Below are positions 9,718 to 46,065 of a stretch of DNA of 64,000 bases, piece by piece. Position 1 is the first letter of the stretch. Every line of letters starts with the position of its first letter. A program made the translations under genes and the position numbers. The notes below the pieces were generated by a model that was not told the origin of the DNA, did not search any database, and worked only from the letters and a program-made list of their open reading frames with translations. This DNA comes from Sphingobium wenxiniae (GTDB taxonomy: Bacteria; Pseudomonadota; Alphaproteobacteria; Sphingomonadales; Sphingomonadaceae): positions 248,001 through 312,000 of the forward strand of contig NZ_VLKK01000004.1 in the NCBI RefSeq assembly GCF_007830065.1. The letters run 5' to 3'.

Positions 9718-9726
9718 CGCGCTTCA

Positions 9727-10470: not shown

Positions 10471-10515
10471 AGCCCGCTCCTGAAACTGTTGGTGCTAAGG
10501 AGCGCGCTCTAGCGT

Positions 10516-10716: not shown

Positions 10717-10782
10717 GGCTGCTTCTTTCTGGACAAGAATTCGTTCTATTATAATGGCTTGAACAATAGCGGAGGTCATTGC

Positions 10783-11412: not shown

Positions 11413-11421
11413 AGATCGAAC

Positions 11422-11664: not shown

Positions 11665-11704
11665 GGGAATCTCCGTGTGAGTGTGAATCGGTTGACGCAC
11701 GCTC

Positions 11705-12004
11705 CTAATGGCTGTCGGCGTTCTTCGCCACACTCTCCTTCATCTTCTCCAACTGCTCGGGCGTCGCTTCCGTCTGATAGCGATCCTTCCATTCGGAAAA
11801 GGGCATTCCGTGAATGAGTTCCCGCGCCTGTTCGCGAGTCAGATTACCGTCCGCCTCGGCGATCCAGTCGGCAAGGCAGTTGCGGCAGAAGCCGGCCATC
11901 CCCATCAGGTCGATATTCTGAACGTCGGTGCGATGTTGCAGATGCGCCACAAGCCGCCGGAAGGCGGTTGCGGCGACCGCGTCGTTGAGTATGGTGTCGT
12001 TCAC
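11705..12004 (-). CDS. DUF1244 domain protein
   Basis: 99 residues from GTG 12004, which has GAAAGG seven bases upstream; a TTG nine codons earlier is less likely. The signature [38 protein letters not shown] is the DUF1244 core, with a CxxC pair in FCRNCL. The function is unknown. It is probably the first gene of a transcript with gapR. Confidence 0.82.
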
Positions 12005-12106
12005 GGCGAAGCCTTTCGCTGGTCTACACAATCCTGTCGTGCAGCACGGATAATCGATAACCGCGTCCTGGCAAGCCAGAGGCGATCATACGATCAGGAG
12101 ACGATA

Positions 12107-14183: not shown

Positions 14184-14234
14184 CGCATCGCTGAAGCGGA
14201 CAACCGGTGCCCACTTTTCCGCGCGATGCTTTGT

Positions 14235-14360
14235 TTAGCCCTGGCGGGCCTTGAAGCGGCGGTTGGTCTTGTTGATGACATAGGTGCGGCCGCGACGACG
14301 GATCACACGGTTGTCCCGGTGACGGCCCTTGAGCGACTTGAGCGAATTGCGGATCTTCAT
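14235..14360 (-). CDS. rpmJ: 50S ribosomal protein L36
   Basis: 41 residues starting [20 protein letters not shown] and ending [16 protein letters not shown]. This is the 41-residue L36 type without zinc-binding cysteines (C- paralog) common in alphaproteobacteria. It is very basic and stands alone between convergent or divergent neighbours. Confidence 0.95.
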
Positions 14361-14557
14361 GGAAGCCAGCCTCTGATGAATCTTTATGATCGGAAAATCG
14401 AAGCGCAGCCCCTATGGGCGGGGCAGGCGAAAGTCAAGGGCGAGGGCCGCTCTTTTCCCGCCGTTCATCCTATATGCAGCAAAGCCGTGGCTGATGCGTT
14501 AGGAAGGAATTGGCCGCATGGCAACGTGTCAGGGCATATCATCCCGGGAGTGCATCC

Positions 14558-15154
14558 ATGTTGAAGAAGATCGTCCTTCCCTGCTGTCTCGCCCTTTCGC
14601 TCGCCGCTTGCGCGACGGCGGTGCCGCCGGTGGAGGTGACGCGCTTCCATGTCGGCGATCCGGCGCGCAGCGGCACCATCGCGGTGGAGGAGATGCCCGG
14701 CAATCCGGACGTCAGCCTGGAATACCGCACCTACTCCAATGCCGTGCAGCAGGAATTGCAGAAGGTGGGCTTCACCCCCACCGCCGAGGGCGCGAAGAGC
14801 GACTATGTCGCGCTGGTCGCTTTCCGCCGGGGTTTCCGCCCAACCGGCTATGGCCGTGACGGCAATCCCGTCAGCGTGGGCGTAGGCGGCGGCGTGGGCA
14901 GCGGCGGCTATTCGGGCCTTGGCGTGGGCATCGGCATCGATCTGTCGGGCAAGCCCAAGGATATCGTTTCCACCGAACTCCAGGTCCAGATTCGCCGCCG
15001 GTCCGATTCCACGACTGTCTGGGAAGGCCGCGCCATCACGCAGGCGCGCGAAGGATCGCCCGCCGCGCAGCCCGGCCTCGCCGCCGGAAAGCTCGCGACG
15101 GCGCTCATCCAGGGCTATCCGGGCGAGTCGGGGCGCACTATAACCGTCAAATGA
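14558..15154 (+). CDS. DUF4136-like lipoprotein
   Basis: 198 residues. The signal peptide [19 protein letters not shown] ends in a lipobox (LAAC). The mature part resembles DUF4136 proteins, with a [20 protein letters not shown] segment, a glycine-rich stretch ([20 protein letters not shown]) near residues 108-127 and a C-terminal [15 protein letters not shown] strand. Probably outer-membrane or periplasmic; function unknown. It overlaps the M14 peptidase gene by four bases. Confidence 0.8.
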
Positions 15155-16281
15155 CCATCTCGATTTCCAGCGCTTTCGACAGCGGCAACATTCGCGTTCT
15201 TTCCATCGACGACACGCCCGCCGGCGTCCGCGCCGAGCTGGAGATCGTCCGCGATCATCAGAGCGATTTCTACCAATGGTTCCACTTCCGCGTGGCGGGC
15301 GTTGCCGGGCGGGACGTGGAGCTGGCGATCACCAATTGCGCCCATTCGGCCTATCCCGACGGCTGGCCGGGCTATCAGGCGCGCTATAGCGAGGATCGCG
15401 AGAACTGGCTGCTCGCCGACACGGATTATGCGGACGGCACGCTCACCATCCGCCTGTCGCCGGATGTCAACGCGGTCTGGCTCGCCTATTTCGCGCCCTA
15501 TTCGATGGAGCGCCACCATGACCTGATCGCCTGGGCCGCCTGTCAGCCGGGCGTCGTCCACCGCGAACTGGGGCTCACCCTCGACGGCCAGCCGCTCGAT
15601 CTGCTGACGCTGGGGGAGGGGCGCAAACAGGTCTGGCTCTACGCCCGTCAGCATCCGGGCGAGAGCATGGCGGAATGGTGGATGGAAGGCGCGCTGGAAC
15701 GCCTGACCGACGAGGAGGACGCCGTCGCCCGCCTGCTGCGGCAGAAAGCGACCTTCCACATCGTCCCCAACATGAACCCGGACGGCAGCCGCCGGGGGCA
15801 TCTGCGTACCAATGCGGCGGGCGTGAACCTCAACCGCGAATGGCATGAACCCTCCATGGAGCGCGGCCCCGAAGTCTTCCTCGTCCGCGCGGCGATGGAC
15901 GAAACGGGCGTCGACTTCGCGATGGACGTGCATGGCGACGAAGCCATTCCCGCCGTCTTCCTCGCGGGTTTCGAGGGTATTCCGTCGATCACGGACCGGC
16001 AGCTTGAGCTGTTCCACCGCTATCGCGACACGCTCGCCGCGCGCACGCCCGATTTCCAGACGAAGCGCGGCTATCCCGTGGCGGGGGAGGGGAAGGCGAA
16101 TCTGTCCATGTCCACCAACCAGCTTGCCGAGCGTTTCGGCGCGGTGGCGATGACGCTGGAAATGCCGTTCAAGGACAATGAAGACCTGCCCGACTCTGAC
16201 TATGGCTGGTCGCCCGCCCGCTCGATGCAGTTGGGCAAGGACTGCCTCGCCGTGCTGGCCGAGATGATCGACGAGATTTGA
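15151..16281 (+). CDS. M14-family zinc carboxypeptidase (cytosolic carboxypeptidase-like)
   Basis: 376 residues without signal peptide. An N-terminal beta domain of about 130 residues typical of cytosolic carboxypeptidase-like M14 enzymes precedes the catalytic domain. Zinc ligands are H168 and E171 ([13 protein letters not shown]) and H261 (AMDVHGDE), with NLNREW for substrate binding and E337 (MTLEMPF) as the general base. The substrate is unknown. It is translationally coupled to the upstream lipoprotein gene. Confidence 0.9.
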
Positions 16282-32078: not shown

Positions 32079-32127
32079 TGGATGCCCGACGAGGATTCGA
32101 ACCTCGATTGACGGAGTCAGAGTCCGC
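32079..32127 (-). other. 3' fragment of tRNA-Gln(CTG): probable attachment site
   Basis: On the minus strand, 32127 to 32111 folds as an anticodon arm (GCGGA, loop CTCTGAC, TCCGT) with anticodon CTG. Next come a four-base variable loop, a perfect T arm (CGAGG TTCGAAT CCTCG reading) at 32106-32090, the 3' acceptor strand TCGGGCA at 32089-32083, one base and CCA. The D arm and 5' acceptor strand TGCCCGA are absent. Tyrosine recombinases commonly use tRNA 3' ends, and an integrase gene reads toward this point, so I read it as the left attachment site. Confidence 0.75.
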
Positions 32128-32162
32128 AATAACCCCTAGGTTTTCTGCGGTTTTTGGCTTCC

Positions 32163-32265: not shown

Positions 32266-32553
32266 ATGGAAATCGAGAGTATCAACCACAAGGCGCTGAG
32301 GAGCCTTTACCTTGAGGGTAAGGAGAAAGGCTTGATCGAGCCGCTGCGCCTCAAAAAGATGCTTTCGTTCATTACGCTGGCGGCTTCACTGGACGAATTG
32401 CAAGTCCCGCCGAACTATAAACTGCACCAGCTAACCGGAGATCGTGCTGGCACATGGTCAATGTGGGTCACGCGCAATTGGCGGATGACGTTTCAGATTA
32501 ACGATGATGGCGCGATCATTGAGATGGATTTGGAGGACTATCATGGGTCTTAA
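32266..32553 (+). CDS. higB: HigB/RelE-family toxin
   Basis: 95 residues, the HigB size. The C-terminal GDRAGTWSMWVTRNWRMTFQINDDGAIIEMDLEDYH carries the conserved Arg and NWRMTF core of ribosome-dependent mRNA endonucleases of the HigB type. It lies upstream of its antitoxin gene, the reversed order typical of higBA. It overlaps higA by 11 bases. It sits at the island edge next to the integrase, where such a module would favour retention of the element. Confidence 0.9.
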   Translation: MEIESINHKALRSLYLEGKEKGLIEPLRLKKMLSFITLAASLDELQVPPNYKLHQLTGDRAGTWSMWVTRNWRMTFQINDDGAIIEMDLEDYHGS

Positions 32554-32842
32554 GATGCACCCCTCGCTATACGTTCACCCCGGCGATTGGCTGAAGACTG
32601 AGATCGTTGAGCCTCACGGGGTCACTGTGACGGCTTTGGCCGAGCATTTCGGTGTATCGCGTCAGGCGCTCAGCGCGTTGCTGAACGGCCATGCGGCACT
32701 ATCCGCCGATATGGCTATCCGCTTTGAAAATGCGTTCGGCGTTAAGGCTGATACGATGTTGCGGATGCAGACCGCCTATGATTTGGCCCGCGCTCGCGAG
32801 CATGAGGCTGATCTGGCGGTTTCGAGCCTGATTGCGGCCTAG
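32543..32842 (+). CDS. higA: HigA-family antitoxin
   Basis: 99 residues from ATG 32543. The helix-turn-helix VTALAEHFGVSRQALSALLNGHAALSADMAIRFENAFG is the VapI/HigA signature, after the typical MHPSLYVHPGDWLK start. It neutralises HigB and represses the operon. Its stop overlaps the convergent integrase stop by four bases. Confidence 0.92.
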   Translation: MGLKMHPSLYVHPGDWLKTEIVEPHGVTVTALAEHFGVSRQALSALLNGHAALSADMAIRFENAFGVKADTMLRMQTAYDLARAREHEADLAVSSLIAA

Positions 32843-34014
32843 CCGATTAACTCGCGTTCGATGGCTGCGGCAACGGCGCTGTCTTGGTCGGCCTGATCGA
32901 AAAGATGGCCGTATGTGTCGAACGTGACCTGTATCGATCCGTGCCCCATCCACTTCTGGACGCGCTTGGGATTCACCCGCTGTTCGATCCAGAGTGAGGC
33001 GGCGGCGTGGCGGAAGTCGTGCAGGGTATAGCGGGGCACCATCACCGGCTGTTCGTGCTTGTCGAGCATTGGCTTGCCGTCGTCGCGTGTCACCATATGG
33101 TGACAGTTGGCGGCGATCTGGACGGCGGCCATGACTTTGCCGTTCATGTATTGATGGCTCATGACCTTGTGGGCGATGGAAGGGAACACAAGCCCGTCAT
33201 CGCTGGCAGGGCAGGCGAGCTTCCACGCCTTTAGCGCGGTGATCGCGGAGTCGGGCAGGGGGATGGTCCTATACCCGGCTTCGGACTTGGGCGGGCCGAT
33301 GATGTTCTTTAGGTCGGCGCGCTGCTCCACCGTGACCGTTCCCGCTTTGAGATCGATGCACCGCCACGGCAAGCCGCGAAGCTCTGAGGCGCGCAATCCG
33401 GCGAAGATGGCGATCAGGGCCAGCGGATGAGCCATCGGCTCTGTGGATGCCTTCGCGGCCTCCAGAATGGCCTTCAATTCGGCTTTGGTCGGAATGATGA
33501 CCTTGGGCTTCTCGCGCTTCGCACGGCGCACCTTTACCCCGGCGACGACATTCTGTGCGACATAGCCCCGGCCCATCGCTTCATTCACGATGGCGGCGAG
33601 GGACCGCAGGACGCGCATGGCCATAGGGCGGGATAGCTTGTCCATAAGCTGATCGCGCCAGCCTTCTGCCATCGGGCGCGTGATCTGCGATAGCTTCCTG
33701 TCGCCACACATGGGCACGATATGCAGGCGCACATGCTGGTCATAGGCTGCGAGGGTGGATGCCTCCAGCTTCTCGCGCTGGCCCCGCTTGATCCAGAGAT
33801 CGGCGGCTTTGGCGATGGTTATTGTCTGCGAATCGGGCGTGTGTGTGCCCTGCGTCACCTGATAGGCCGCTGTCGTTAGCCAGGCATCGGCCTCCTTTTT
33901 GCGCGTGAACTGCTTGCGGCGGCGGTTCCCGGCTTGATCCACATAATCGACCTGCCAGCCCGTCTTTTCGCTGCCGTCCGGGGCGACCCAGCTACGTTTG
34001 CGGATGCTGGTCAT
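32839..34014 (-). CDS. tyrosine-type integrase 1
   Basis: 391 residues from ATG 34014. It has an N-terminal arm-binding region, a SAM-like core-binding domain (ADLWIKRGQREKLEASTLAAYDQHVRLHI) and the catalytic domain with Arg in FAGLRASELRGL, HxxR in LHDFRHAAAS, His in MGHGS and nucleophile Tyr in FDTYGHLF. It reads toward the tRNA-Gln fragment 700 bases away, so it probably catalysed insertion there. It overlaps the regulator gene upstream by 23 bases. Confidence 0.93.
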   Translation of the reverse strand: MTSIRKRSWVAPDGSEKTGWQVDYVDQAGNRRRKQFTRKKEADAWLTTAAYQVTQGTHTPDSQTITIAKAADLWIKRGQREKLEASTLAAYDQHVRLHIVPMCGDRKLSQITRPMAEGWRDQLMDKLSRPMAMRVLRSLAAIVNEAMGRGYVAQNVVAGVKVRRAKREKPKVIIPTKAELKAILEAAKASTEPMAHPLALIAIFAGLRASELRGLPWRCIDLKAGTVTVEQRADLKNIIGPPKSEAGYRTIPLPDSAITALKAWKLACPASDDGLVFPSIAHKVMSHQYMNGKVMAAVQIAANCHHMVTRDDGKPMLDKHEQPVMVPRYTLHDFRHAAASLWIEQRVNPKRVQKWMGHGSIQVTFDTYGHLFDQADQDSAVAAAIERELIG

Positions 34015-34678
34015 TACGCTTCGCCAGAGTTTCGTTAATTGCTCGTGCCCCTTCCTCAATCAACTTGGCTTGCTTTTCGACATTGCTCTGCAATTCCGAG
34101 AATGCTTTTTCTGCATCAATGTTCAAATGTTCCTCCATTCTAAGAAACAGAATGGCGACGAGCGGCCTAAGAAGAATAACAATCCAGCGGTAAAAAACCC
34201 CAATAGTAGGATTGATTGCATCTTGCCCGAAAAATGCTGGCAATTTGCTTACCTCTACAAATTCGAATGCCTCGTAATAATCAATTTCACTTTCTCCATC
34301 CGTCGAGAGGTCGCGCAGAGATTCCGGGGACACGCAGAGCGCAAGCTCATTGGATAAGACTCTGCCGTCGTCAGACTTAAGCTCCCCCGGAGCCGCCGCA
34401 AACAGCATATAAATTCGCGTCTCCAACCAATTTTTTGAAATGAGATCGACTGTCCGCTGAGGCGACACGCCAGCTTGCATGAACTCGATAGCAAGGGCGA
34501 GCTGCATAACCATGTCGAGGTCATACTCTGCGCGTCGGCCCTTCCCGGTATTGCTCCCCCGGGGAAAACCGAGACGCTGGAAATGTCGAAGCCTCGCTTT
34601 GAACGCGCCCTCCGATTCGTCGGCTATCCCGTTCATCGCTGCCAGCAATTTGATTAATTCGGAATAGGTTAGCGTCAC
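33992..34678 (-). CDS. prophage-type HTH regulator with C-terminal hydrophobic segment
   Basis: 228 residues from GTG 34678 (longer starts run into the divergent promoter region). Residues 1-90 (YSELIKLLAAMNGI, GAFKARLRHFQRLGFPRGSNTGKGRRAEYDLDMVMQLALAIEFMQAGVSP) resemble a MerR-like prophage regulator family. Further on there is a hydrophobic stretch FYRWIVILLRPLVAILFLRM, possibly a membrane helix, and a coiled coil at the end. Codons are much AT-richer than in the core genome. It probably controls the divergent AlpA-like operon and is co-transcribed with integrase 1. Confidence 0.6.
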   Translation of the reverse strand: MTLTYSELIKLLAAMNGIADESEGAFKARLRHFQRLGFPRGSNTGKGRRAEYDLDMVMQLALAIEFMQAGVSPQRTVDLISKNWLETRIYMLFAAAPGELKSDDGRVLSNELALCVSPESLRDLSTDGESEIDYYEAFEFVEVSKLPAFFGQDAINPTIGVFYRWIVILLRPLVAILFLRMEEHLNIDAEKAFSELQSNVEKQAKLIEEGARAINETLAKRNDQHPQT

Positions 34679-34779: not shown

Positions 34780-34962
34780 ATGTTGAGCCAAGACCTCATT
34801 GCGGGGGCCACTGCCGCCGCCACCTATGCGGGCCTCACGCCGCGAGCGATTTACCACCTTGTCGAACAGGGCCACCTCCCTGTGATCCGCAAGGGCAAGC
34901 GCCTGTATTTCCGTAAGTCGGAACTGGAAGCGGCGTTCCGTTCGGAGGCGGTCAATGGCTGA
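34780..34962 (+). CDS. AlpA/excisionase-like helix-turn-helix protein
   Basis: 60 residues. TAAATYAGLTPRAIYHLVEQGHLPVIRKGKRLYFRKSELEAAF is a MerR/AlpA-type winged helix found in excisionases and satellite activators. It is the first rightward gene of the island, preceded by ACGGAG, and is expected to drive excision or the rightward operon. It overlaps the next gene by eight bases. Confidence 0.85.
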   Translation: MLSQDLIAGATAAATYAGLTPRAIYHLVEQGHLPVIRKGKRLYFRKSELEAAFRSEAVNG

Positions 34963-35182
34963 GCGGCCTAAGCTGTCGCTGCTGCGGACTGATCGCCGCA
35001 TCCTCATCACGCAGGAGGGCGGGCAATTTCGCGTCTGCGTCGATCCCGCACCCGATGGCCCGGACCTGACGGCCATCTTCCCGACCTATCGCGCGGCGCG
35101 TGGCAATGCTGGTGGCCTGCGTCTCGTGCATCGCTGGTCGATCATCGACCAGACATGTCCCGGCGAGGGAATGAGCAAGTGA
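34955..35182 (+). CDS. small island protein, unknown
   Basis: 75 residues: RRILITQEGGQFRVCVDPAPDGPDLTAIFPTYRAARGNAGGLRLVHRW. No family is recognised. The overlap with the AlpA-like gene and reading direction support it as real. It could be a small beta-rich regulator. Confidence 0.6.
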   Translation: MAERPKLSLLRTDRRILITQEGGQFRVCVDPAPDGPDLTAIFPTYRAARGNAGGLRLVHRWSIIDQTCPGEGMSK

Positions 35183-35247
35183 AGCAAGCGGTCGAGGGAA
35201 CGGCTGGAACCCGTTCACCCCGACCTGTTCAACTCGGAGCATACCAA

Positions 35248-35496
35248 ATGAACGGAACTGATATAGCAACTAAGGAGGGCGCTGTCGCCCCGACATTCAT
35301 CCGTCCCGACACAATCGACGCTACGGCGCTGCTTGCGTGCATCGAAAGGCACCTTCATCATACTGGCACCTATGCCACCGTTTTCGGGCAGCGTGCCGTC
35401 AATGATCCCAGATTTGTGCATGATCTTCGCAAGGGTCGCCGCGTCACCCGCCGCACCGCTTCGCGTGTCGAATCCTATCTGGCGAAGGGGGCGTGA
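35248..35496 (+). CDS. small HTH-like island protein, copy A
   Basis: 82 residues from ATG 35248, which has CGGAG eight bases before it. The C-terminal part TVFGQRAVNDPRFVHDLRKGRRVTRRTASRVESYL has the pattern of short lambda-repressor-like helix-turn-helix proteins of alphaproteobacterial prophages. It has a clear paralog at 39162-39410 (same RPDTID start, FGxRAVNDP and RTASRxESYLAKGA). It ends next to the following gene, which is also duplicated. Confidence 0.72.
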   Translation: MNGTDIATKEGAVAPTFIRPDTIDATALLACIERHLHHTGTYATVFGQRAVNDPRFVHDLRKGRRVTRRTASRVESYLAKGA

Positions 35497-35498
35497 CC

Positions 35499-35708
35499 AT
35501 GGAGGCGATAGACCACCCCAGCGCGCAGCCCGTGCCCCCTGCTGCTGTCTCCCGCATCCTGTCGCGCTTTTCGCGGACGGAGCTAGAGGGCTTTGTCGCG
35601 GTAGCCATCGATCTGATGGACGTGGCAGACGACGACCCCGATCTTGAGGACGACGACCCCGCTGGCGGCAATGTCGAGGACGAGGGCGAGCGGGAGGAAG
35701 GCGACTGA
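35499..35708 (+). CDS. small acidic island protein, copy A
   Basis: 69 residues from ATG 35499 (a GTG at 35493 overlaps the previous stop). The N-terminal half HPSAQPVPPAAVSRILSRFSRTELEGFVAVAIDLMD is shared with the gene at 39407-39727. The C-terminal half is very acidic (DDDPDLEDDDPAGG). The function is unknown. The last base overlaps the replication gene. Confidence 0.65.
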   Translation: MEAIDHPSAQPVPPAAVSRILSRFSRTELEGFVAVAIDLMDVADDDPDLEDDDPAGGNVEDEGEREEGD

Positions 35709-36601
35709 TGGCGAAGCGGAAAGCACGCGCTGACTGTCGGGCCGACACGCGGGGAGGGGCATGGGCGGGCATCCCCGTCTGTGTCGTCAACAGCCCTGCC
35801 TATCGTGACCTGAGCCTGTGGGCGCGTGCGATCCTTGTCGAGCTGGTCGCGCGCATGAACGGCTATAACAACGGGCACATTGCCCTGAGCGTGGCGGAAA
35901 TCTGCACGGCGCTGAGCAATAGCAGCCGGAGCCGTGCGGCCAAGGCGATTGCCGAGCTTATGGAGCATGGCTTCATTGACGTGACGCACGAGGCGATGTG
36001 GAAGGAGCGGAAGGCGCGTGAGTATCGCCTGACGTTCGTGACGACCGCTTACCCGCCCTTCGGCGCGACCAATGATTATCGGAACTGGGAACCCCGGAAA
36101 CAAAACAGCGGTAACGGTGTGTTACCAGAAACACCCTCTACTGGTAACGGTGTGTTACCAGACGCCGTTTCCACTGGTAACGGTGCGTTACCAAGGCTTT
36201 TGGCGCATCAACGGAAATCCGCCAAAAATGGGAAATCGCCCAATCCTGTTTCTGGTAACACACCGTTCCCCCTTATATATAACCATACCCCTCCCCGAAA
36301 AACGGGGGATGGAAACAAGTCTGACAGCACTGGAAACATGGATGGGCCATCGCAGGCCGTGCCCCCCTCAAAAGGGGGCGACGGGCAGAGCGCGGCGGTC
36401 ATTAGGGAAAAGCTGAAAAGCCTGCTGCGGTCCAGCCCTACGGGAACGCAGACACGGCTTGCCGAGGCTGCACGGATACCGGGCGGCACCCTCTCCAAAT
36501 TCATCAACGAGGGCAAGGCGCTGTCGGCGGCCCATAGTGTGCGGCTGCAACTCACAATGGCGGAACTGGAAAAATCGGCGGGCGCATCGCGTGCCGCGTG
36601 A
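35708..36601 (+). CDS. probable replication initiator with internal origin
   Basis: 297 residues. Residues 20-115 form a winged-helix region (VNSPAYRDLSLWARAILVELVARMNGYNNGHIALSVAEICTALSNSSRSRAAKAIAELMEHGFI), as in phage and plasmid replication proteins. Residues 135-167 are three 11-residue repeats (GNGVLPETPST type) that simply reflect the DNA iterons at 36110-36192. The C-terminus has a second helix-turn-helix (TRLAEAARIPGGTLSKFINEGKALS). The layout, an initiator with iterons inside its gene, recalls lambda O. Origin function is inferred. Confidence 0.7.
   Translation: MAKRKARADCRADTRGGAWAGIPVCVVNSPAYRDLSLWARAILVELVARMNGYNNGHIALSVAEICTALSNSSRSRAAKAIAELMEHGFIDVTHEAMWKERKAREYRLTFVTTAYPPFGATNDYRNWEPRKQNSGNGVLPETPSTGNGVLPDAVSTGNGALPRLLAHQRKSAKNGKSPNPVSGNTPFPLIYNHTPPRKTGDGNKSDSTGNMDGPSQAVPPSKGGDGQSAAVIREKLKSLLRSSPTGTQTRLAEAARIPGGTLSKFINEGKALSAAHSVRLQLTMAELEKSAGASRAA
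36110..36282 (+). repeat. iteron array and AT-rich tract: candidate replication origin
   Basis: The 17-bp palindrome GGTAACGGTGTGTTACC starts at 36110, 36143 and (one base changed) 36176, exactly 33 bp apart. A fourth, inverted partial copy GGTAACACACCG is at 36254-36265. A TATATATA tract lies at 36273-36282. The arrangement matches an iteron origin followed by an unwinding element, placed inside the presumed initiator gene. The 33-bp period keeps repeats on one DNA face (three turns) and in frame. Confidence 0.7.
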
Positions 36602-36613: not shown

Positions 36614-36856
36614 ATGAGCATTTCGGATAAACTGATGGGCGCGTCCTATCCTGCTGTGACGATAGAGAAATGGACGGGGCTTGATGGCTGGCCCTACCTG
36701 CGCGTGTTCCTCATGACTGGCCCACATGATGAGCCGGTGCCAGAGGGCCGAGAATATCAGACTAGAGCGGAGGCGGTGGCCGCAGCTGAGACATTCGGCG
36801 CGGCGCTGCTGCCTGCTGGCTTCCAGATTGTTCATATGACCGATGGCCGTGGCTGA
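36614..36856 (+). CDS. small island protein, unknown
   Basis: 80 residues, MSISDKLMGASYPAVTIEKWTGLDGWPYLRVFLMTGPHDEPVPEGREYQTRAEAVAAAETFG. GGGAGC lies 10 bases upstream. No family recognised. It overlaps the HNH gene by 14 bases. Its place before HNH and terminase is where a small terminase often lies, but nothing in the sequence supports that. Confidence 0.55.
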   Translation: MSISDKLMGASYPAVTIEKWTGLDGWPYLRVFLMTGPHDEPVPEGREYQTRAEAVAAAETFGAALLPAGFQIVHMTDGRG

Positions 36857-37238
36857 CTGGCCCTACAACACCGTGCAGTGGCAGCGCCTGCGTCTGGCTC
36901 ACCTTGCTATCGAACCGATGTGCAGGGGGTGCAGGGAGCGCGGGCAACTCGCCCCCGCCAACACGGTGGATCATGTCCATCCTATCAGCGAGGGCGGGCC
37001 TGCTTTTCCCGGCCATGACGGTCTAGCATCCTACTGCGCCGGTTGCCACAGCGCCAAAACAGCGAGGGGTGCAGAGGCAGGCGCGATCAGGAGCGCGAAG
37101 CCGCGACGGGGCTGCGATGTGAACGGCACACCGCTCGACCCGGCGCATCCGTGGAACAGCGAAAAATCGCTCAGGGCTGACGGATCAGGACCGACGCCTG
37201 ACCTTCACAATCAGTTAGTTTCAAAAGGAAACCTATAA
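36843..37238 (+). CDS. phage HNH endonuclease
   Basis: 131 residues. CRGCRERGQLAPANTVDHVHPISEGG and LASYCAGCHSAKTA give the CxxC, DHxxP and CxxCHxxK pattern of HNH nucleases that act with HK97-type terminases. It ends one base into the terminase gene. Such HNH proteins are needed for terminase cleavage in HK97-like phages and cf-PICIs. Confidence 0.9.
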   Translation: MAVADWPYNTVQWQRLRLAHLAIEPMCRGCRERGQLAPANTVDHVHPISEGGPAFPGHDGLASYCAGCHSAKTARGAEAGAIRSAKPRRGCDVNGTPLDPAHPWNSEKSLRADGSGPTPDLHNQLVSKGNL

Positions 37239-38824
37239 TGGGTGCAAGGGGTCCGGGCGCTGGTCGCCTGAAAGCCGTTGCTGCGAGGGCTGTGTCGGCT
37301 GCGCTTCCGTGGGAGCAGGAGAACATGCCGCCTGCCGAGAAGGTGTTGGCCTTCCTGCGAACCCTGCCCATCGTGTCGGGCCTCAAGGCTGGCGAGAAGA
37401 TGGAATTGCTGGCGTTTCAGGAGCAATTCGTGCGCGGGATATATGAACCCTGCGACGATCAGGGCAAGCGTCTGGTGCGTCTTGCTGCGCTGTCTGTGGC
37501 GCGTGGCAACGGCAAATCTGGTCTGCTGGCCGGTCTGTCGCTGGCTCACCTCATGGGGCCGATGCTGGAACCCTATGGCGAGTGCTATGCCGCCGCACTC
37601 GACCGCGAACAGGCTGCGGTCCTGTATCGCATGGTCTGCGCCTATATTTACGAAACCCCATGGATGGCTGCGCGTGTGAATATCCGCGACCAGTTCAAGG
37701 AAATCACCGACCACGAAAGCGGCTCGATCTGGCGGGCGCTGACTTCGGACGCGCGCAAGGCCCACGGCTTGGCCCCGTCCTTCTGGGTGGCGGACGAGGT
37801 GGCGCAATGGCGATCCCGTGAACTATGGGATAATCTGCGGACGGGCATGGCGAAGCGCAAACATGCCCTGGGCGTCACGATCAGCACGCAGGCGGCGGAC
37901 GATCTGCATTTCTGGTCTGAGATGCTGGACGCGGAGCCAGCACCATCGGTCTATGTCCAGCTTCACGCCGCACCTGATGATTGCGCGCTGGATGACCGGG
38001 AGGCATGGGCGGCGGCTAATCCTGCGCTGGGCGCGTTCCTCAATGAGGATGAGTTTGCGGACGCTGCGGCTATGGCCATGCGCTCGCCATCCTTTGCACC
38101 TGCCTTCCGCCTGCTGAACCTCAACCAGCGGATTGCAGCCGAGGGCCGGTTCATCGAACAGGCGGATTGGGACGCGAACGGCGATCCCTTCGACCTGGCC
38201 GAGATGGAGGGCAAGCGATGCTATGGGGGCCTCGACCTGTCCAGCACGCGCGACCTGACCGCGCTGGCACTGTGGTTCCCTGATGAGGGCAAGCTGCTGG
38301 TCTGGCATTGGGTGCCTGCCGACACGATAGGCGAGCGCGTCGAGCGCGACCGCGTGCCCTATGATCGCTGGGCGGAGGATGGCTGGATCGAAAAGACCGT
38401 GGGCCGCGCAACGGATCGTGTCGCCATTGCGCGCCAGCTTGCCGATATTCGCGGACGCTATGACGTGCAGGGCATCGCCTTCGACCGCTGGCGCTTTGAG
38501 GATTTGGGCAAACTGCTGTCGGATGAAGGGATTGACCTGCCCATGATGGAGTTCGTGCCGGGGTTCAAAAGCTATGCCCCTGCTGTGGATGCGTTCGAAC
38601 GCGCGGTGCTCGACCGCAAGATGCAGCACAACGGCAATCCCCTGCTGCGCTGGCAGGCGGGCAACGTCATGGTCGAGACGGACCCGACCGGCAACCGCAA
38701 GCCGACAAAGGCAAAGAGCCTGGACCGCATCGACGGCATCGTGTCAGCCATCATGGCCTGCGGACTCGCGGCCACCGATGAGGGGCCGCAAGTCTACAAG
38801 GGCGATGGGCTGATGTGGGTTTAG
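37238..38824 (+). CDS. phage terminase large subunit
   Basis: 528 residues. Walker A-type ARGNGKSG with K93, Walker B in FWVADEVA (D187, E188), and the RNase H-like nuclease beginning CYGGLDLSSTRDLTALALW near residue 330. It packages DNA into procapsids. The small subunit is not recognisable in the usual position upstream. The gene overlaps HNH by one base and is followed by a minus-strand gene. Confidence 0.93.
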   Translation: MGARGPGAGRLKAVAARAVSAALPWEQENMPPAEKVLAFLRTLPIVSGLKAGEKMELLAFQEQFVRGIYEPCDDQGKRLVRLAALSVARGNGKSGLLAGLSLAHLMGPMLEPYGECYAAALDREQAAVLYRMVCAYIYETPWMAARVNIRDQFKEITDHESGSIWRALTSDARKAHGLAPSFWVADEVAQWRSRELWDNLRTGMAKRKHALGVTISTQAADDLHFWSEMLDAEPAPSVYVQLHAAPDDCALDDREAWAAANPALGAFLNEDEFADAAAMAMRSPSFAPAFRLLNLNQRIAAEGRFIEQADWDANGDPFDLAEMEGKRCYGGLDLSSTRDLTALALWFPDEGKLLVWHWVPADTIGERVERDRVPYDRWAEDGWIEKTVGRATDRVAIARQLADIRGRYDVQGIAFDRWRFEDLGKLLSDEGIDLPMMEFVPGFKSYAPAVDAFERAVLDRKMQHNGNPLLRWQAGNVMVETDPTGNRKPTKAKSLDRIDGIVSAIMACGLAATDEGPQVYKGDGLMWV

Positions 38825-39161: not shown

Positions 39162-39410
39162 ATGGCTAAGCACTCCTTACGGGCGGATTCCGTCTCCGTC
39201 ACTATTGCGAATCGCCGTCCTGACACGATCGACGGCACCCCTCTCCTGAAAAAGATCGAAGCGCACATCGTCGCGTGCGGGACATCGCCAACTGTGTTTG
39301 GACGGCGCGCTGTCAATGATCCCTGTCTTGTGTTCGATATGCGGCGCGGGAGGTGGCTGACCCGCCGCACAGCCTCACGCATCGAATCCTATCTGGCGAA
39401 GGGGGCATGA
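39162..39410 (+). CDS. small HTH-like island protein, copy B
   Basis: 82 residues, paralog of 35248-35496. The two are the same length and share RPDTIDxTxLLxxIExH, TVFGxRAVNDP and LTRRTASRIESYLAKGA. Near the 3' end the DNA is identical over about 25 bases. It overlaps the next gene in ATGA, as its counterpart does in GTGA. Confidence 0.72.
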   Translation: MAKHSLRADSVSVTIANRRPDTIDGTPLLKKIEAHIVACGTSPTVFGRRAVNDPCLVFDMRRGRWLTRRTASRIESYLAKGA

Positions 39411-39727
39411 TGATGGGCGCGATCAATCATCCCTCACGCCAGCCTGTCCCTCCTGCGGCAATCTCCCGCGTCCTGTCGCGCTTTTCCCGTTCCGAGCTGG
39501 AGGGCTTTGTCGCGGTCGCCATCGACTTGCTGGACCTGATGGACGGCGATCCCGACCTGGAGGACAATCATGACGGCGACGACCAAGGTGATCAGTCATG
39601 GATCGAATGGCACATGGCGCGCGGAAGCCAGAATATCCTTCCCGGTCATGAGGATGACGAGGACGCCGATCCGGCCGAGGACGGCGATAGCGATTGCTGC
39701 GCGGCTGGTGATGATCGGTTGCATTGA
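39407..39727 (+). CDS. small acidic island protein, copy B
   Basis: About 104-106 residues; ATGs at 39407, 39410 and 39413 are all possible, with GGGGG upstream. NHPSRQPVPPAAISRVLSRFSRSELEGFVAVAIDLLDLMDGDPDLED matches copy A at 35499-35708. It then has a longer acidic tail (GHEDDEDADPAEDGDSDCC). Unknown function. Confidence 0.65.
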   Translation: MMMGAINHPSRQPVPPAAISRVLSRFSRSELEGFVAVAIDLLDLMDGDPDLEDNHDGDDQGDQSWIEWHMARGSQNILPGHEDDEDADPAEDGDSDCCAAGDDRLH

Positions 39728-40510: not shown

Positions 40511-40738
40511 ATGCCGTCATCCTACATCAAAGCGATTTGGCTATTTGTTCCCGAATCGTCCCCCATTTCAGATTGGGCCTGTGCTGGCCCAATACCCGCC
40601 TCCCGGCCGGGCGCCCCCGCGTCAGGGCACGAAGCATGGGCACACATGCAGGCCGGACCTTTAGCCATCGTCGCGAGACAGACGGCAATCACCGCGCCGG
40701 GGGCTTCGGTCCCCGGCCAGATTGAGGAAGTGACATGA
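40511..40738 (+). CDS. possible small protein before capsid
   Basis: 75 residues ending in ATGA overlap with the capsid gene, with EAWAHMQAGPLAIVARQTAITAPGASVPGQIEEVT at the C-terminus. An overlapping alternative frame starts at 40504. The overlap with capsid favours 40511. I do not recognise it and the call is tentative. Confidence 0.35.
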   Translation: MPSSYIKAIWLFVPESSPISDWACAGPIPASRPGAPASGHEAWAHMQAGPLAIVARQTAITAPGASVPGQIEEVT

Positions 40739-41976
40739 AAACGAGTGACTTGATTGAACAGAGCGCGGCGATCGAGTCGCGCATGAAGGCGGCTCACGAA
40801 GCCGATGACCAGCCCGCGTTCGAGGCCGCTGAGGCCGAATTCAACGCCATCAAGCCCAAGCTGGAGCGCCAGCGCAAGATTGACGCCATGGAGCGCCGCG
40901 AGGCTGGCACACCACTCAATGGCGACAACAAGCTGACCAGCGAAATCCGTTCCCGCTTCAACATCGGGCGCGCCATCGCGGGCGCTGCGGGGCTGGCGGT
41001 CGATTGGGGCTTCGAGAGCGAGATGCAAGGCGAACTGGCGAAGCGCGCAGGTCGCAATGCCGAGGGTGTATTCATCCCGACCGAGTGCTTCGAAACCCGC
41101 GTTCTGACCACCACGACCGGTGCCGAACTGGTGCCGACCGATCACCGCCCCGACCAGTATGTCAATGCGCTGGTAGCATCGGCCAAGGTGCGCGCGCTGG
41201 GTTCAACCATCCTTTCCGGCCTCACCGGCAATCTTTCGATCCCACGCGAAACCGCAAGCCCCGCAATCGGCTGGGTCGCGGAGAACACCGCCTTGACCGC
41301 TGGCGATGCCGATTTTGACAGCATCACCCTGTCGCCCAAACATGCGGGCGCGCTGTCGGAATGGTCCCGCAACATGCTCATGCAGGCCAGCCCGGACGTG
41401 GAAGCCCTGCTGCGCCAAATGCTGGCCCGCAATCTCGCGCTGGCGATCGACAAGGCGGCTATCCTTGGCGGCGGCGCCAATGAACCCAAGGGCGTTTTGG
41501 CCACGACCGGCATTCAGAAGCTCACGGCCCCGGCTTCGCTGTTCGACGCGGTGGCCGATGCCGTGGCGCTGGCCGATGTGGAGAATGTGGGCGCATCGCG
41601 CGGCCTGCTGACCACCCCGGAAATCCGCAAGATCGCCGCCAAGGCATTGGACGCCAACGGCCTGCCTATCGGGCTGGACAAGGTTTTCGGCGGCGTTTCC
41701 TCCACCTTCTCCAATCAGGTGCCCAAGACGCTGGGCGGAAGCCCCGGAACCGAGCATGGCATGATCTACGGCGACTGGTCGGAACTGCTGATCGGCATCT
41801 GGTCGGAAATCGACATTCTCGTAAACCCGTTTGAATCGACGGCCTACAGCAAGGGCAATGTCATGATCCGCGCCATGGCGACGGTCGATTGCGCGGTGCG
41901 CCACCCCAAGGCGTTCGTGTCGATCGAGGACGTGACCACGGCGACCCCGGCCATGCCGGAAGTGGTGACGCCCTGA
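40735..41976 (+). CDS. HK97-family major capsid protein
   Basis: 413 residues. A helical N-terminal delta domain (about 1-60, IEQSAAIESRMKAAHEADDQ...) likely acts as scaffold and is removed by the protease. It is followed by the HK97 fold: ELVPTDHRPDQYVNALVASAKVRALGSTIL, SIPRETASPAIGWVAENTALTAGDADFDSITLSPKHAGALSEWSRNMLMQAS, AILGGGANEPKGVLAT. Its last base overlaps the protease start. That the island encodes its own capsid is the main mark of a cf-PICI-like satellite or a defective prophage. Confidence 0.93.
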   Translation: MKTSDLIEQSAAIESRMKAAHEADDQPAFEAAEAEFNAIKPKLERQRKIDAMERREAGTPLNGDNKLTSEIRSRFNIGRAIAGAAGLAVDWGFESEMQGELAKRAGRNAEGVFIPTECFETRVLTTTTGAELVPTDHRPDQYVNALVASAKVRALGSTILSGLTGNLSIPRETASPAIGWVAENTALTAGDADFDSITLSPKHAGALSEWSRNMLMQASPDVEALLRQMLARNLALAIDKAAILGGGANEPKGVLATTGIQKLTAPASLFDAVADAVALADVENVGASRGLLTTPEIRKIAAKALDANGLPIGLDKVFGGVSSTFSNQVPKTLGGSPGTEHGMIYGDWSELLIGIWSEIDILVNPFESTAYSKGNVMIRAMATVDCAVRHPKAFVSIEDVTTATPAMPEVVTP

Positions 41977-42521
41977 TGAGCGCGGCGGCATCCATCGAGC
42001 GGCGGGCCTTCACGGAGGTCCGCACCGCTGGGCGGCGTATCGAGGGGTATGCCGCCACGTTCAACGCCGAGGCGAACCTTGGCGCGTTCCGGGAGCGCAT
42101 TGCCCCCGGCGCGTTCCGTTCGGCACTGTCGGGCGATATCCTGGCACTGCTGGATCATGACCCCGGCAACGTGCTGGGCCGCACCCGTTCGGGCACGCTG
42201 CGGCTGTCCGAGGACAGCCGGGGCCTCGCCTTCTCGCTCGACCTTCCCGAGACGCAGGCCGGGCGCGACGTGCTGGCGCTGGCCAAGCGCGGCGACCTGG
42301 GCGGCATGTCCTTCGGCTTCACGGTCCCCAAGGGCGGCGAAAGCTGGAGCGGCGAAACCCGGACCTTGCGGACGGTCGATCTGAAAGAGATCAGCATCGT
42401 TCAGGCATGGCCCGCCTATCCCGATACCGAGATCGCGTTGCGGAGTCGTTGCCATGATGGCCATGCCCTGCGCCGTCGCCGGTCCCTCATTCTCGCGGAG
42501 GTGGCCCGTGCGATTGGCTGA
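41976..42521 (+). CDS. HK97-family prohead protease
   Basis: 181 residues from ATG 41976. RRIEGYAATFN and FRERIAPGAFRSAL open the family fold. The catalytic His is H61 (LLDHDPGNVLGRT) and Ser S112 (LGGMSFGF). It cleaves the capsid delta domain during maturation. Gene order capsid-protease-portal is the reverse of HK97. It overlaps the portal gene by 14 bases. Confidence 0.92.
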   Translation: MSAAASIERRAFTEVRTAGRRIEGYAATFNAEANLGAFRERIAPGAFRSALSGDILALLDHDPGNVLGRTRSGTLRLSEDSRGLAFSLDLPETQAGRDVLALAKRGDLGGMSFGFTVPKGGESWSGETRTLRTVDLKEISIVQAWPAYPDTEIALRSRCHDGHALRRRRSLILAEVARAIG

Positions 42522-43695
42522 TCGTCTCCTTTCCCGGCTGGGCTATGAGCGCCGCGACGCCAGCGATCCGTCATGGGCGGCGCTGGCCCCCGGCATCGGT
42601 TACACCGCCAGCCTGTCGGCCCGCGCGGCGGAGAACCTCGCCACGGTGCTGGCCTGCACCAACGCTATCGCCAGTGCGATCGGCAGCATCCCCGCGCTGG
42701 TCTACCGGAGAGACGCCGAGGGCAACCGCACGGAGGTTGCATCGCATCCCGTGGCGCGACTGTGCCGGGTCGGCGCGAACCCCGGCATGTCATGGCCCGA
42801 CACGATCGAACATTGGATCGCATCGGCCCTGCTGACGGGCAACGGCCTGCTGGCGATCGAGCGTTCCGGCAATGGGCAGCTATCGGGCCTGCGCTGGCTC
42901 CCGTGGGGCATGGTGACGGTCGCGGAACTGTCGAGCGGACGCCTCGCCTATGACTATGCGGACGGGCGCGGCAATGTGCGTCGCTATCTTGAAAGCGAGG
43001 TGCTGCACCTGCGCGACCGGACGGACGATGGCAAGATAGGGCGCAGCAGGCTCTCACGGGCTGCCGAGACGGTGCAGGCCGCCCATGCGGCCAACACGGC
43101 GGCGTCGTCCTTCCTGGCCAACGGCGCGCGCCCCAGCGGCCTGATCGAAGTTCCCGGCACCATGAAGCCGGAACAGCGCCAGAGTCTCCGGGAGCAAATC
43201 CAGGGCACCCATGAGGGCGCGGCCAATGCCGGGCGGACGATGGTGCTGGACGGCGGCATGACGTGGAAGGCGAACCAGATAAGCCCGGAGGATGCCGAGC
43301 TTCTGGAAACGCGGCAATTTGCTGTCGTGGAGTTGTGCCGGCTGTTCCAGGTGCCCCCGCCAATCATTCAGGACTATTCGCACAACACGTTCACCAACAG
43401 CGCCCAGGCGGGCTTGTGGTTCGCGACGTTCTGCCTTGCGCCCTGGGCGCGCAAGATCGAGGCGGAGTTTGCGCGGAGCGTCCTGCCGACCGGGTACGAA
43501 CTGGAGCTGGACCTGTCGGGCTTCCTGCGCGGCGACCCTGAAACCCGGTGGAACGCGCACAAGATCGCGATTGAAACGGGCGTGCTGGACGCGGATGAAG
43601 TGCGCCAGATTGAAGGCTGGAATCCCCGCAAGGAGGAACCTGCGGGCGTCCGTAGTCCTGCCCCTGCGAACCAGGGAGAACAGTCCCATGTCTGA
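42508..43695 (+). CDS. HK97-type phage portal protein
   Basis: 395 residues from GTG 42508, preceded by GGAGG at 42497-42501; an ATG at 42454 would overlap the protease further. ACTNAIASAIGSIPALVYRR, LLTGNGLLAIER, the stem region AHAANTAASSFLANGARPSGLIEVPG and FAVVELCRLFQVPPPIIQDYSHNTFTNSAQA are portal signatures. It forms the DNA entry vertex and docks terminase and connector. Confidence 0.93.
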   Translation: MRLADRLLSRLGYERRDASDPSWAALAPGIGYTASLSARAAENLATVLACTNAIASAIGSIPALVYRRDAEGNRTEVASHPVARLCRVGANPGMSWPDTIEHWIASALLTGNGLLAIERSGNGQLSGLRWLPWGMVTVAELSSGRLAYDYADGRGNVRRYLESEVLHLRDRTDDGKIGRSRLSRAAETVQAAHAANTAASSFLANGARPSGLIEVPGTMKPEQRQSLREQIQGTHEGAANAGRTMVLDGGMTWKANQISPEDAELLETRQFAVVELCRLFQVPPPIIQDYSHNTFTNSAQAGLWFATFCLAPWARKIEAEFARSVLPTGYELELDLSGFLRGDPETRWNAHKIAIETGVLDADEVRQIEGWNPRKEEPAGVRSPAPANQGEQSHV

Positions 43696-43954
43696 TCTTG
43701 TCACCCTTGCAGAAGCCAAGCTGCATCTTCGCGTCACCCATGACGATGAGGATACGGCCATCGCCATGATGATCGCGGCGGCATCGGAAGCCGTGGCGGA
43801 TATAGTTGGGGAGATCGACCCCGACGACATTCCAGTGCGCGTCAAGCTGGCCGTCCTGACCCGCGTGGCGGTCATGTTCGACACCCGTGACAGTATCGAG
43901 GCGGGCAAGGGCGAACTGCCCATGCTGACGCCGCTGCGGAAGCTGGAGGTGTAG
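43688..43954 (+). CDS. gp6-like head-tail connector
   Basis: 88 residues. MSDLVTLAEAKLHLRVTHDDEDTAIAMMIAAASEAVADIVG is the gp6/DNA-packaging connector pattern. It overlaps the portal gene by eight bases. It would close the filled head and present a tail-docking surface, important if tails come from a helper phage. No stopper or tail genes follow. Confidence 0.85.
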   Translation: MSDLVTLAEAKLHLRVTHDDEDTAIAMMIAAASEAVADIVGEIDPDDIPVRVKLAVLTRVAVMFDTRDSIEAGKGELPMLTPLRKLEV

Positions 43955-43957: not shown

Positions 43958-44203
43958 GTGGCGGCACGCGCTCAACCCCGATGGCAGCGAGTTCAACGTG
44001 CTCAGGGCGCGGCGGATTATGCTGGCTATCGGAGTGAGCGCGACTTCCTCGCAGCGGTGCAACGGGGGGAAATGCCCCCGCCTTTCGAGCATGTCGGTGC
44101 ACCCGCTTGGGATATAGTCGATCTGGATGCCTACATAGAGGCGATCAAGGCGGGCGCTCAAAGTAAGCGCAAATGGCAGGAAAGGGCACCGGCTCGTGTC
44201 TAA
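43958..44203 (+). CDS. excisionase-like helix-turn-helix protein beside integrase 2
   Basis: 81 residues from GTG 43958. AADYAGYRSERDFLAAVQRGEMPPPFEHVGAPAWDIVDLDAYIEAIKAG matches the small AlpA-like proteins that precede integrases in alphaproteobacterial islands. It overlaps integrase 2 by eight bases, so the two form a second excision/integration module. Confidence 0.7.
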   Translation: MAARAQPRWQRVQRAQGAADYAGYRSERDFLAAVQRGEMPPPFEHVGAPAWDIVDLDAYIEAIKAGAQSKRKWQERAPARV

Positions 44204-45257
44204 GTCGCTCTGGCCCGGCGTGCGCGTTAAAACCGCCAAAGGGAAAAAATATTGGTATTGGACCCGCGTTGAACCGGGAGCGCCATGGGTTCGCCTCCCC
44301 TCCCCCTATGATGATGCGGACGGCTTCATGCGAAAGCTGGCTCACTACCAGCGTGTCACAGCCCGCATAGCCGAACACAAGCGCGAGGGGACGTTCGGCG
44401 CATTGGTAACGACCTATCGCGGCTCGCGCGATTATGAACGCCTGTCGGCCAATACCCGCATTTCCTATGATCGCTATCTCGACCGCTTGGTAGTCGCCTA
44501 TGCTGATGCGCCGCTGGTCGAAATGACGCCAGAGGACATTCAGGTTCGTGTCATGGACGCTAACAGCGACACGCCAGCGGCGGCGGACATGATGCTGACC
44601 ATCCTGCGCGTGCTCTACAAGTTCGCCCTGAAGCGACGGCGCGGGCTGGAGGACTGGACGGCAGGCATTGAGCCATACGGGAACAAGACGGAGCGGGAGC
44701 CATGGCCGCTGCATATGCTCGACGCGGCTAAGGCGAGCGATGATCCGCTATTCCGCCTTGCGGTAAAGCTGGCACTCTACACTGGGCAACGCCCTGGCGA
44801 CGTTTGCAACATGACCTGGAACGCCGTTCAGGGCGGCTATATCCGCGTTCGGCAGCAAAAGACCGGCACGCCTGTCGAGATCGCCATGCACACCGAATTG
44901 GCGGCTGAACTGGCGACGGCCAAGCGATCGGATCGGCACCTGTTTATCCTGTCGAATCGGCAGGGCGGGCCGCTCACGTCCAAGGTATTACTGAAATGGT
45001 GCCAAGCCTTCACGCGCAAGCTCGGCCGCAACTACTCGCCCCATGGCCTACGCAAAAACGCCACTAATGAATTGTTCGAGGCGGGATGCACTGCGGCGGA
45101 AGTCGCGGCCATCACCGGACACAAATCCCTGTCGATGCTGGAGCATTACGGCAAGGCGCGGAGCCAGCCGAAACTAGCGGCTCGCGCCATCGGCAAGTGG
45201 ACAGAAACAGAACAAGAACGGGAAAACCACAAGGCAAATGGAAAACCACGTCAATAA
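44196..45257 (+). CDS. tyrosine-type integrase 2
   Basis: 353 residues from GTG 44196. The core-binding domain includes LSANTRISYDRYLDRLVVAYADAPL. The catalytic domain has Arg in YTGQRPGDVCNM, HxxR in SPHGLRKNA, His in ITGHKS and nucleophile Tyr in LEHYGKA. It is unrelated in detail to integrase 1. It reads outward and ends about 30 bases before the point where the NfrB-like reading frame resumes, so its attachment site is probably there. Confidence 0.93.
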   Translation: MSKSLWPGVRVKTAKGKKYWYWTRVEPGAPWVRLPSPYDDADGFMRKLAHYQRVTARIAEHKREGTFGALVTTYRGSRDYERLSANTRISYDRYLDRLVVAYADAPLVEMTPEDIQVRVMDANSDTPAAADMMLTILRVLYKFALKRRRGLEDWTAGIEPYGNKTEREPWPLHMLDAAKASDDPLFRLAVKLALYTGQRPGDVCNMTWNAVQGGYIRVRQQKTGTPVEIAMHTELAAELATAKRSDRHLFILSNRQGGPLTSKVLLKWCQAFTRKLGRNYSPHGLRKNATNELFEAGCTAAEVAAITGHKSLSMLEHYGKARSQPKLAARAIGKWTETEQERENHKANGKPRQ

Positions 45258-45288
45258 GGGTCGGAAAACAAAGGCGAAATTCGGATGA

Positions 45289-46065
45289 GCAATAACCAAT
45301 CATTATTGCGACGAATTTGCCGAAAGCCACGCCAAATTCCTGACCATGCGGGAAGCCCTGGGCGCATCCATTCCTTCCGCAGGCGTCGCCTGCGCCTTCG
45401 AAAGGCAGATGCTGGGTCGCCTGACCGAGGACAGGGCGGAAGGCCCGTTCGATCCCGACTCCCTGACCGAAGATTATGAAGCCGGCCTCCGCGTCGGCGA
45501 AATGGGCGGCCGGGGCATATTCGTTCGGATGCGCGACGAAAAAGGCGCGTTGGTCGCGACTCGGGAATATTTCCCGGACACTCTGGACGCGGCCATCAGG
45601 CAGAAGGCCCGCTGGATCATCGGCATATCGCTTGCAGGATGGGACCGGCTGGGGTGGCATGGCGGCGCGTCGGAATGGTGGATGCGCATCCGCGACCGTC
45701 GCGCCGCGCTGGCAGCGCTCGTGCTGTTCGCGGCCTATCTATCCCTCTTGCTGTGGGCCGCGCTGCTGGTCATCGGGTTTTTCTTTGCCTACACGCCGCC
45801 GCCTTATCCCCGAATAATCCACGCATTGTTGCTTCTGAATGGGGGATTGATGATCTGGCGCGCAATCCTGCGCGCGATATTTGCAGCGCATAGCTATGGC
45901 TGGCGTCATGGGATCGCCTCGATCCCGCGGATATGCATCGCCAATCTGATTGCGATCATGGCGGCACGCCGCGCTATCTTCCTCTATGTCCGGTCGCTGC
46001 TGGGCAGGCCGTTGACGTGGGACAAGACTGAACATCGCTTTCCCGAATTGCGGTCGCAGGAATGA
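45289..46065 (+). pseudogene. NfrB-like glycosyltransferase, 3' half only (disrupted by the island)
   Basis: From 45289 the frame reads HYCDEFAESHAKFLTMREALGASIPSAGVACAFER, then FDPDSLTEDYEAGLRVGEMG and ATREYFPDTLDAAIRQKARWIIGISLAGWDRLGW. These are hallmarks of the second half of NfrB (phage N4 adsorption protein B) GT2 domains, followed by membrane segments (LAALVLFAAYLSLLLWAALLVIGFFF). The nucleotide-sugar-binding N-terminal half is missing and a TGA stands at 45286-45288. An ATG at 45346 might give a truncated membrane protein, which could not be an active transferase. Confidence 0.82.

Follow-up and report, generated by a model that had tools for sequence, protein, structure and literature searches.

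The window analysed here, a stretch of 64,000 nucleotides of the Sphingobium wenxiniae genome to which all coordinates refer, contains an open reading frame of 297 codons in which 17-bp palindromes recur at regular intervals. This raises the question of whether an origin of replication is written inside the gene of its own initiator, as the original prediction proposed by analogy with lambda ori inside gene O. The reading frame has the position and length first given for it (Table 1), and its product is very probably a lambda-O-like initiator whose own gene would hold the origin, formed by the array and an AT-rich box, within a small integrative element. An iteron origin of this kind is the best-supported reading of the locus, as the array is conserved as DNA and the protein matches replication-initiation profiles.

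Table 1. Features of the putative replicon and of the element carrying it, in window coordinates.
Feature	Position	Strand	Basis or remark
Tyrosine integrase	32839-34059	-	Pfam Phage_integrase 2.3e-20
AlpA/HTH_17-type regulator or excisionase	34780-34962	+	Pfam HTH_17 1.7e-9; syntenic in relatives
Putative replication initiator gene (297 aa)	35708-36601	+	ORF, PHROG matches, AF2 model
Replaced cassette: winged helix, iterons and box	35714-36326	+	DNA comparison with L009/L045
Winged-helix domain (residues ~22-133), putative iteron reader	35771-36105	+	Alignments, covariation
Iteron 1, GGTAACGGTGTGTTACC	36110-36126	+	Repeat search, genome-wide pattern scan
Iteron 2, identical to iteron 1, offset +33 bp	36143-36159	+	Repeat search, genome-wide pattern scan
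Iteron 3, GGTAACGGTGCGTTACC, offset +33 bp	36176-36192	+	Repeat search, genome-wide pattern scan
Iteron 4, reversed copy GGGAACGGTGTGTTACC (plus strand GGTAACACACCGTTCCC)	36254-36270	-	Repeat search
Conserved AT-rich box CTTATATATAACCAT	36272-36286	+	De novo motif, regular-expression scan, GC
TATATATA tract	36274-36281		Inside AT-rich box
C-terminal 91 codons, right shoulder of swapped cassette	36327-36601	+	96% DNA identity to L009, 90% to L045
HNH endonuclease	36843-37238	+	Pfam
Terminase large subunit (TerL)	37238-38824	+	Pfam
Major capsid, head protease, portal, head-tail connector	40735-43954	+	PHROGs, Pfam

Each iteron is built of 6-bp inverted arms around a 5-bp core (GGTAAC-N5-GTTACC, 17 bp in total). 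The array had been described as three 17-bp palindromes placed 33 bp apart, and the 33/33 spacing and the identity of the first two copies hold; the palindromes are nevertheless imperfect on account of the core, in which the third copy also carries its single mismatch. The inverted partial copy reported behind them was recovered as a fourth iteron on the minus strand, again with one mismatch, its centre lying 78 bp past that of iteron 3 and the TATATATA tract following it. The period is not exactly three helical turns, as had been stated, but 3.1 turns of 10.5 bp. Allowing up to three mismatches, the palindrome occurs four times in the 64-kb window against 0.02 expected, with 0/100 shuffles as rich, and the pattern GGTAACN5GTTACC is found in the 4.1-Mb genome only at iterons 1-3 (the reversed-pattern control gave 0). 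Its confinement to these three copies means that it is not a host regulatory motif, and a reading of the palindrome as a host regulatory site was rejected. The iterons of lambda were recovered by the same repeat tool.

Because its period is 33 bp, the array is also read in frame as an 11-residue peptide repeat (GNGVLPETPST / GNGVLPDAVST / GNGALP...), and the in-frame recurrence of three GNGVLP-type units would suit the reverse explanation, in which the repeat is a feature of the protein and the palindromes a side effect of codon use. This explanation has next to no chance of being correct. In 400 recodings of the linker with synonymous codons drawn from the gene itself, the score for DNA repeats never attained the observed 62 (mean 35.6, maximum 59), and the repeat in the DNA is therefore stronger than the peptide repeat requires; most array-bearing homologs likewise beat all or nearly all of their own 400 recodings. 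In relatives with 22-bp spacing the repeats are read in differing frames, without such a peptide repeat. The whole array lies past the end of the reading frame in nine homologs (L004, L008, L018, L074, L075, L078, L081, L093 and L099), which places DNA rather than peptide under selection, and in others the frame stops within the array. Selection on the peptide repeat is thus refuted by the recoding null and by the arrays outside the frame. Since array and box are kept behind the domain with or without a reading frame across them, reading frame and putative origin are independent of each other. The earlier statement that the array forces an 11-residue repeat therefore needs qualifying: the repeat is real, but it is a by-product of one spacing class and is missing from the 22-bp-spaced relatives.

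Palindrome conservation in spite of protein drift, proposed earlier as a check, was borne out among the homologs. Over 19 close pairs, the iterons share 79% and the box 87% of their nucleotides, compared with 59% for the remaining linker and 69% for the domain codons, so that among close relatives iterons and box outlast both, and the array sometimes persists with no protein over it. Homologs keep the palindromes better than the protein, which is the opposite of the case named in the original prediction as contrary to it, a peptide repeat kept while the DNA palindromes are destroyed.

The family is widespread. Profiles of the winged-helix domain at the N-terminus of the protein matched in 49/299 genomes of the order at E <= 0.001, a count that includes a weak tail, and at E <= 1e-8 in 38/399 genomes of the family and 20/385 of the class. 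The homolog set comprised 84 distinct domains, dereplicated for identity only, so that some near relatives remain in it. Arrays were sought in the 320 bp after the domain and called significant when at most 1/100 Markov sequences was as good. At least 59/83 homologs carry a significant array directly after the domain, and 53/83 reach an array score of at least 20, against 7/168 control windows from elsewhere in the same loci. One small clade among the 24 homologs without a significant array still has the box: in L027, L110 and L122, as well as in L017, a CACATATAATATACCAG-type box follows the domain, and no repeat array could be detected. The binding sites of these homologs may have been lost or be too diverged for the method to recognise.

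The palindromes differ by lineage: GGTAAC..GTTACC in the window is replaced by GGTGAC..GTCACC in L030, L031, L032 and L038, by CTGCTGAC..GTCTCAGCAG in L033, L109, L116 and L117, by GGTCGCAAAAATTGAGAC in L002, L009 and L043, by GGTCCGGAAAATCCGG in L007 and L099, and by still others elsewhere. The window protein found no match as a whole in phage and plasmid records and no relative in a genome scan, nor did four other queries yield relatives in viral scans; the distant relatives were reached solely by N-terminal profiles. In the deposited phage record PP003913 (L065), the N-terminus of L009 is matched at 33% identity by a gene with the annotation 'replication protein O', and four GGTACAGAAACTGTAC copies (GGTACAGAAACTGTACC x4) lie across the stop codon of this gene at spacings of 22, 54 and 35 bp. 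Besides the O-like gene, this 16-kb record (1-16187) contains genes for an integrase and a Cox-like regulator as well as Rhs genes, with no annotated structural genes, and is more suggestive of an integrative island or satellite than of a phage.

Spacing is constrained where sequence is not. Internal centre-to-centre distances fall at 33 (36 cases), 22 (20), 54 (15) and 42 bp (10), with a few neighbouring values, and are in phase at a period of 10.5-10.7 bp (Rayleigh R 0.86, n=117, the relatives not being independent). The equivalent of the last iteron was found in relatives at 57-78 bp, and the last spacings form classes of 35, 43-45, 57, 66-69 and 78 bp, with steps of about 11 bp and a constant offset. 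Relative to the internal spacings, the distance to the last iteron is out of phase by roughly one third of a turn, as though this site pointed in a different direction. Spacing classes cluster on the tree, with 26 changes against 50 when shuffled, and all 17 members of the clade of the window (support 100/92) are spaced at about 33 bp, yet several different palindromes occur among them.

A blind search past the last iteron returned the box as a motif of the form C-W-TATA-..TA-.CCAT/G, with an information content of 10.7 bits against 6.1 bits in shuffled sequence. In most members its start lies exactly 10 bp past the last iteron's centre, and its regular expression matches 49/84 homolog regions, 35 of them at exactly 10 bp, against 24/840 control windows. 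The box sits in coding or non-coding DNA, and its reading frame relative to the domain end varies. In the window it has 20% GC within a gene of 60% GC, the lowest-GC 60-bp stretch of which begins at 36223.

The box also resembles a -10 element, and the fixed 10 bp between it and the centre of the last palindrome would suit a promoter. The array could accordingly be an operator, with the protein as a transcription regulator acting at a promoter at the TATATATA box on the late or packaging genes or on itself, all the more as winged-helix domains resemble MarR/HTH_36 regulators and the gene lies just upstream of HNH and TerL here. We regard this as unlikely, because three or four helically phased palindromes in or behind the regulator's own gene would be unusual for an operator, the layout persists in islands where very different genes follow, replication initiators are the best matches among phage families and the box is a poor -10 element in many members (e.g. 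CAAGTAGTTAGCCATGG).

The protein is predicted to consist of an N-terminal winged helix, a disordered linker over the array and a short helical C-terminus. The AF2 model of the domain alone is a winged helix with a pLDDT of 70; the full-length model is poor (pLDDT 44), is of low confidence over residues 111-227 and was used for the linker only. The best PHROG of the window domain is a 'replication initiation protein' (4e-6), with matches to phrog_270 and 186, and 8/9 homologs agree with this assignment. PHROGs 678, 345, 391 and 18020 are matched both by lambda O and by the homologs L002/L065, which provides an indirect N-terminal link, and the direct hhalign comparison of the window domain with lambda O is weak (probability 12%, E 0.0025). 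Foldseek matches are marginal (E ~1e-2 in PDB and ~1e-3 in the viral set), the viral list including replisome organizers and a lambda-O N-terminal protein. The C-terminus matched no PHROG or Pfam family, and that of lambda O matches phrog_391/2514/9773. The initial view that the protein has no obvious relation to O is consequently right for the C-terminus and wrong for the N-terminus, where replication-initiation PHROGs and shared O-like families are found. No adjacent helicase-loader gene of P or DnaC type was recognised by Pfam or PHROG, the next genes being an 80-aa ORF, HNH and TerL, nor were other replication genes within the element. Judged by its sequence, the 297-aa protein is not a member of the lambda O family proper, because its C-terminus and neighbouring loader differ; that it works like lambda O is the best reading by analogy. 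The initiators of L031 and L038 end in a cysteine-rich stretch (CDDCGQ...RYCDERC) that resembles a treble-clef zinc finger, without the helical C-terminus, and C-termini have evidently been exchanged too.

The PDB sequence search returned generic winged helices only, among them a weak match to TubR. parS/parC sites typically consist of repeated palindromes to which a small protein binds, and the array might on these grounds be a centromere-like partition site bound by an adaptor from the same gene. Such a role is very unlikely: no ParA/TubZ-type NTPase was recognised beside the gene, the hosts of the family are integrated islands, and an AT-rich box at a fixed distance suits an origin better.

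What the winged helix of the putative initiator reads is indicated by covariation. Iteron similarity tracks domain identity across the family (Mantel r 0.67, 0/2000 permutations), but it does not go with the C-terminus: the window protein and L009 share 94% of C-terminal residues, with 32% identity in the domain and unrelated iterons. Physical linkage explains the covariation of domain and iterons in part, but not the lack of covariation with the C-terminus. As domain and iterons covary, binding of the iterons by the winged helix is strongly implied from sequence. In both L009 and L045 the C-terminal codons are near identical to those of the window, and winged helix and iterons are unrelated. 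DNA similarity breaks off upstream at 35648 (L009) and 35713 (L045) and resumes exactly at 36327. Similarity is lost between two homologous shoulders, and the DNA-binding half and the array were therefore replaced together. That dozens of distant relatives preserve the layout although the recognition sequence has changed suggests that protein and site are passed on and exchanged as a unit.

The element around the gene (32.8-44.0 kb of the window) is best read, from its genes alone, as a capsid-encoding, tail-less satellite of about 10 kb resembling cf-PICIs. Pfam and PHROGs found no tail genes in it, no small terminase was recognised among the scanned ORFs, and no primase of a Pri-Rep type primase-initiator was recognised in the element, an O-like initiator standing in its place. 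Its gene order is common, whole or partly, to L009, L045, L046, L051, L052, L054 and L062, and intact relatives measure about 10.3 kb, L051 and L062 lying between tRNA-Gln repeats and L045 between tRNA-Arg repeats.

The left end (32083-32130) abuts the 3' half of a tRNA-Gln. Between this half and the integrase (32266-32842) lie two overlapping small ORFs that read as HigBA-type toxin-antitoxin-like. A two-gene block apparently occurs twice, as orf113/orf71 (35155-35708) before the initiator and as orf82/orf124 (39162-39727) behind TerL, and an Alph_Pro_TM gene, indicative of an alphaproteobacterial host, was found near the element (Pfam). No right-end att repeat was found in the window, the sole other tRNA-Gln match lying 52 kb away in the opposite direction; where the repeat would be expected (44196-45400) there is a second tyrosine integrase and then an apparently truncated glycosyltransferase. 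A second, related satellite lies in the opposite orientation by an intact tRNA-Gln at contig C4:332711-338595 (L126, L130), its TerL and capsid being 95% and 86% identical to those of the window element. Its HNH gene is cut off by the end of the contig, and the assembly yielded no second initiator. The window element may have been rearranged against this second copy.

Since pac sites within terS are known, HNH and TerL follow the gene and the element contains no recognised TerS, the protein could alternatively be the small terminase and the repeats its pac/cosB site. This is extremely unlikely. Members of the initiator family are also found in further islands that carry an integrase and, in some cases, restriction-modification genes, with no terminase detected nearby, and at least 11 homologs, most of them with an array, have no detected TerL within 240 kb or in the genome at all (G028, G029, G248, G096, G271, G132, G191, G222, G246, G288 and G164). 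The profile matches, moreover, are to replication proteins and not to TerS. The absence of a detected terminase near other family members largely refutes the TerS/pac reading.

For the initiator, the following sequence of events is proposed. The winged-helix N-terminus would bind the four inverted-repeat iterons cooperatively and roughly on one helix face, and the bound assembly would open the adjacent CTTATATATAACCAT box, where the replicative helicase would then be loaded. As the element has no recognisable loader, the host or a helper is assumed to supply one. Melting at the box and helicase loading are inferred from ori-lambda and SPP1 oriL (PMC3349717, PMC7466680, PMC6316719). Keeping domain and cognate site in one cassette would leave them linked on exchange, which may be the reason for the arrangement.

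More broadly, the family probably represents a widespread class of satellite and island replicons that is undescribed as far as the open-access library searched goes. In this class, a winged helix and its own origin would form an exchangeable cassette of about 0.6 kb in which the palindromes turn over with the domain, neither the helical spacing nor the 10-bp position of the common box changes, and the end of the reading frame may fall before, within or after the origin. If so, the 'origin in gene' of lambda and the 'origin 3' of gene' of PICIs would be two states of one unit, and the box would be a new initiation element. The homologs offer dozens of natural versions of a single origin design that differ independently in sequence, spacing, reading frame and protein, so that old questions become testable: why some phages have the origin inside the initiator gene, how initiator and site co-evolve, and which geometry is needed to open DNA. 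They further supply numerous pairs of domain and palindrome from which a recognition code of winged helices could be read, as well as orthogonal origins.

Among known systems, lambda ori consists of four imperfect inverted-repeat iterons inside the O gene, followed by an AT-rich stretch (PMC3349717, PMC7466680). The likeness lies in an origin inside the initiator gene, with several inverted-repeat iterons behind an N-terminal DNA-binding domain and an AT-rich stretch after them. The window differs in its unrelated palindromes, in its spacing of 33/33/78 bp compared with about 20-24 bp in lambda, in its defined CTTATATATAACCAT box, in its unrelated C-terminus and in having no adjacent P-type loader gene. 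In phage SPP1, oriL comprises direct repeats bound by the initiator gp38 within its own gene and an AT-rich unwinding element (PMC6316719). The window is likened by description to this combination of repeats inside the initiator's own gene and an AT-rich element, and the DnaD-like PHROG similarity of its domain holds at domain level only; SPP1, unlike the window element, encodes a loader and a helicase itself and possesses another origin.

In PICIs the origin follows immediately 3' of the initiator gene (PMC6092414), an arrangement resembled by those homologs whose ORF stops early. The element shares with PICIs and cf-PICIs an integrase, an AlpA-type regulator, a rep gene, its own capsid and packaging genes and the lack of tails. 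It differs from PICIs in having a lone O-like winged helix instead of Pri-Rep and, in the window, a reading frame that continues through the putative origin, and from cf-PICIs in size, its intact relatives measuring about 10.3 kb compared with an average of about 14 kb (PMC10803314).

In PLE, a satellite of Vibrio cholerae, the DNA-binding domain of RepA covaries with the iterons while the C-terminus is kept, with repeated domain swaps, and the origin has three semi-palindromic iterons of about 30 bp (PMC8263062). Domain-iteron covariation with a kept C-terminus is common to both systems, and the en-bloc exchange described here parallels the PLE case (PMC8263062). The PLE origin, however, occupies an intergenic region of its own, and the domain there, RepA_N, is of another type, whereas domain and putative origin form one continuous cassette in the window. 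A single cassette would let satellites change their replication specificity in one recombination step; in PLE, the swap of RepA_N and origin has been proposed to provide escape from an origin-directed, origin-cutting phage nuclease (PMC8263062).
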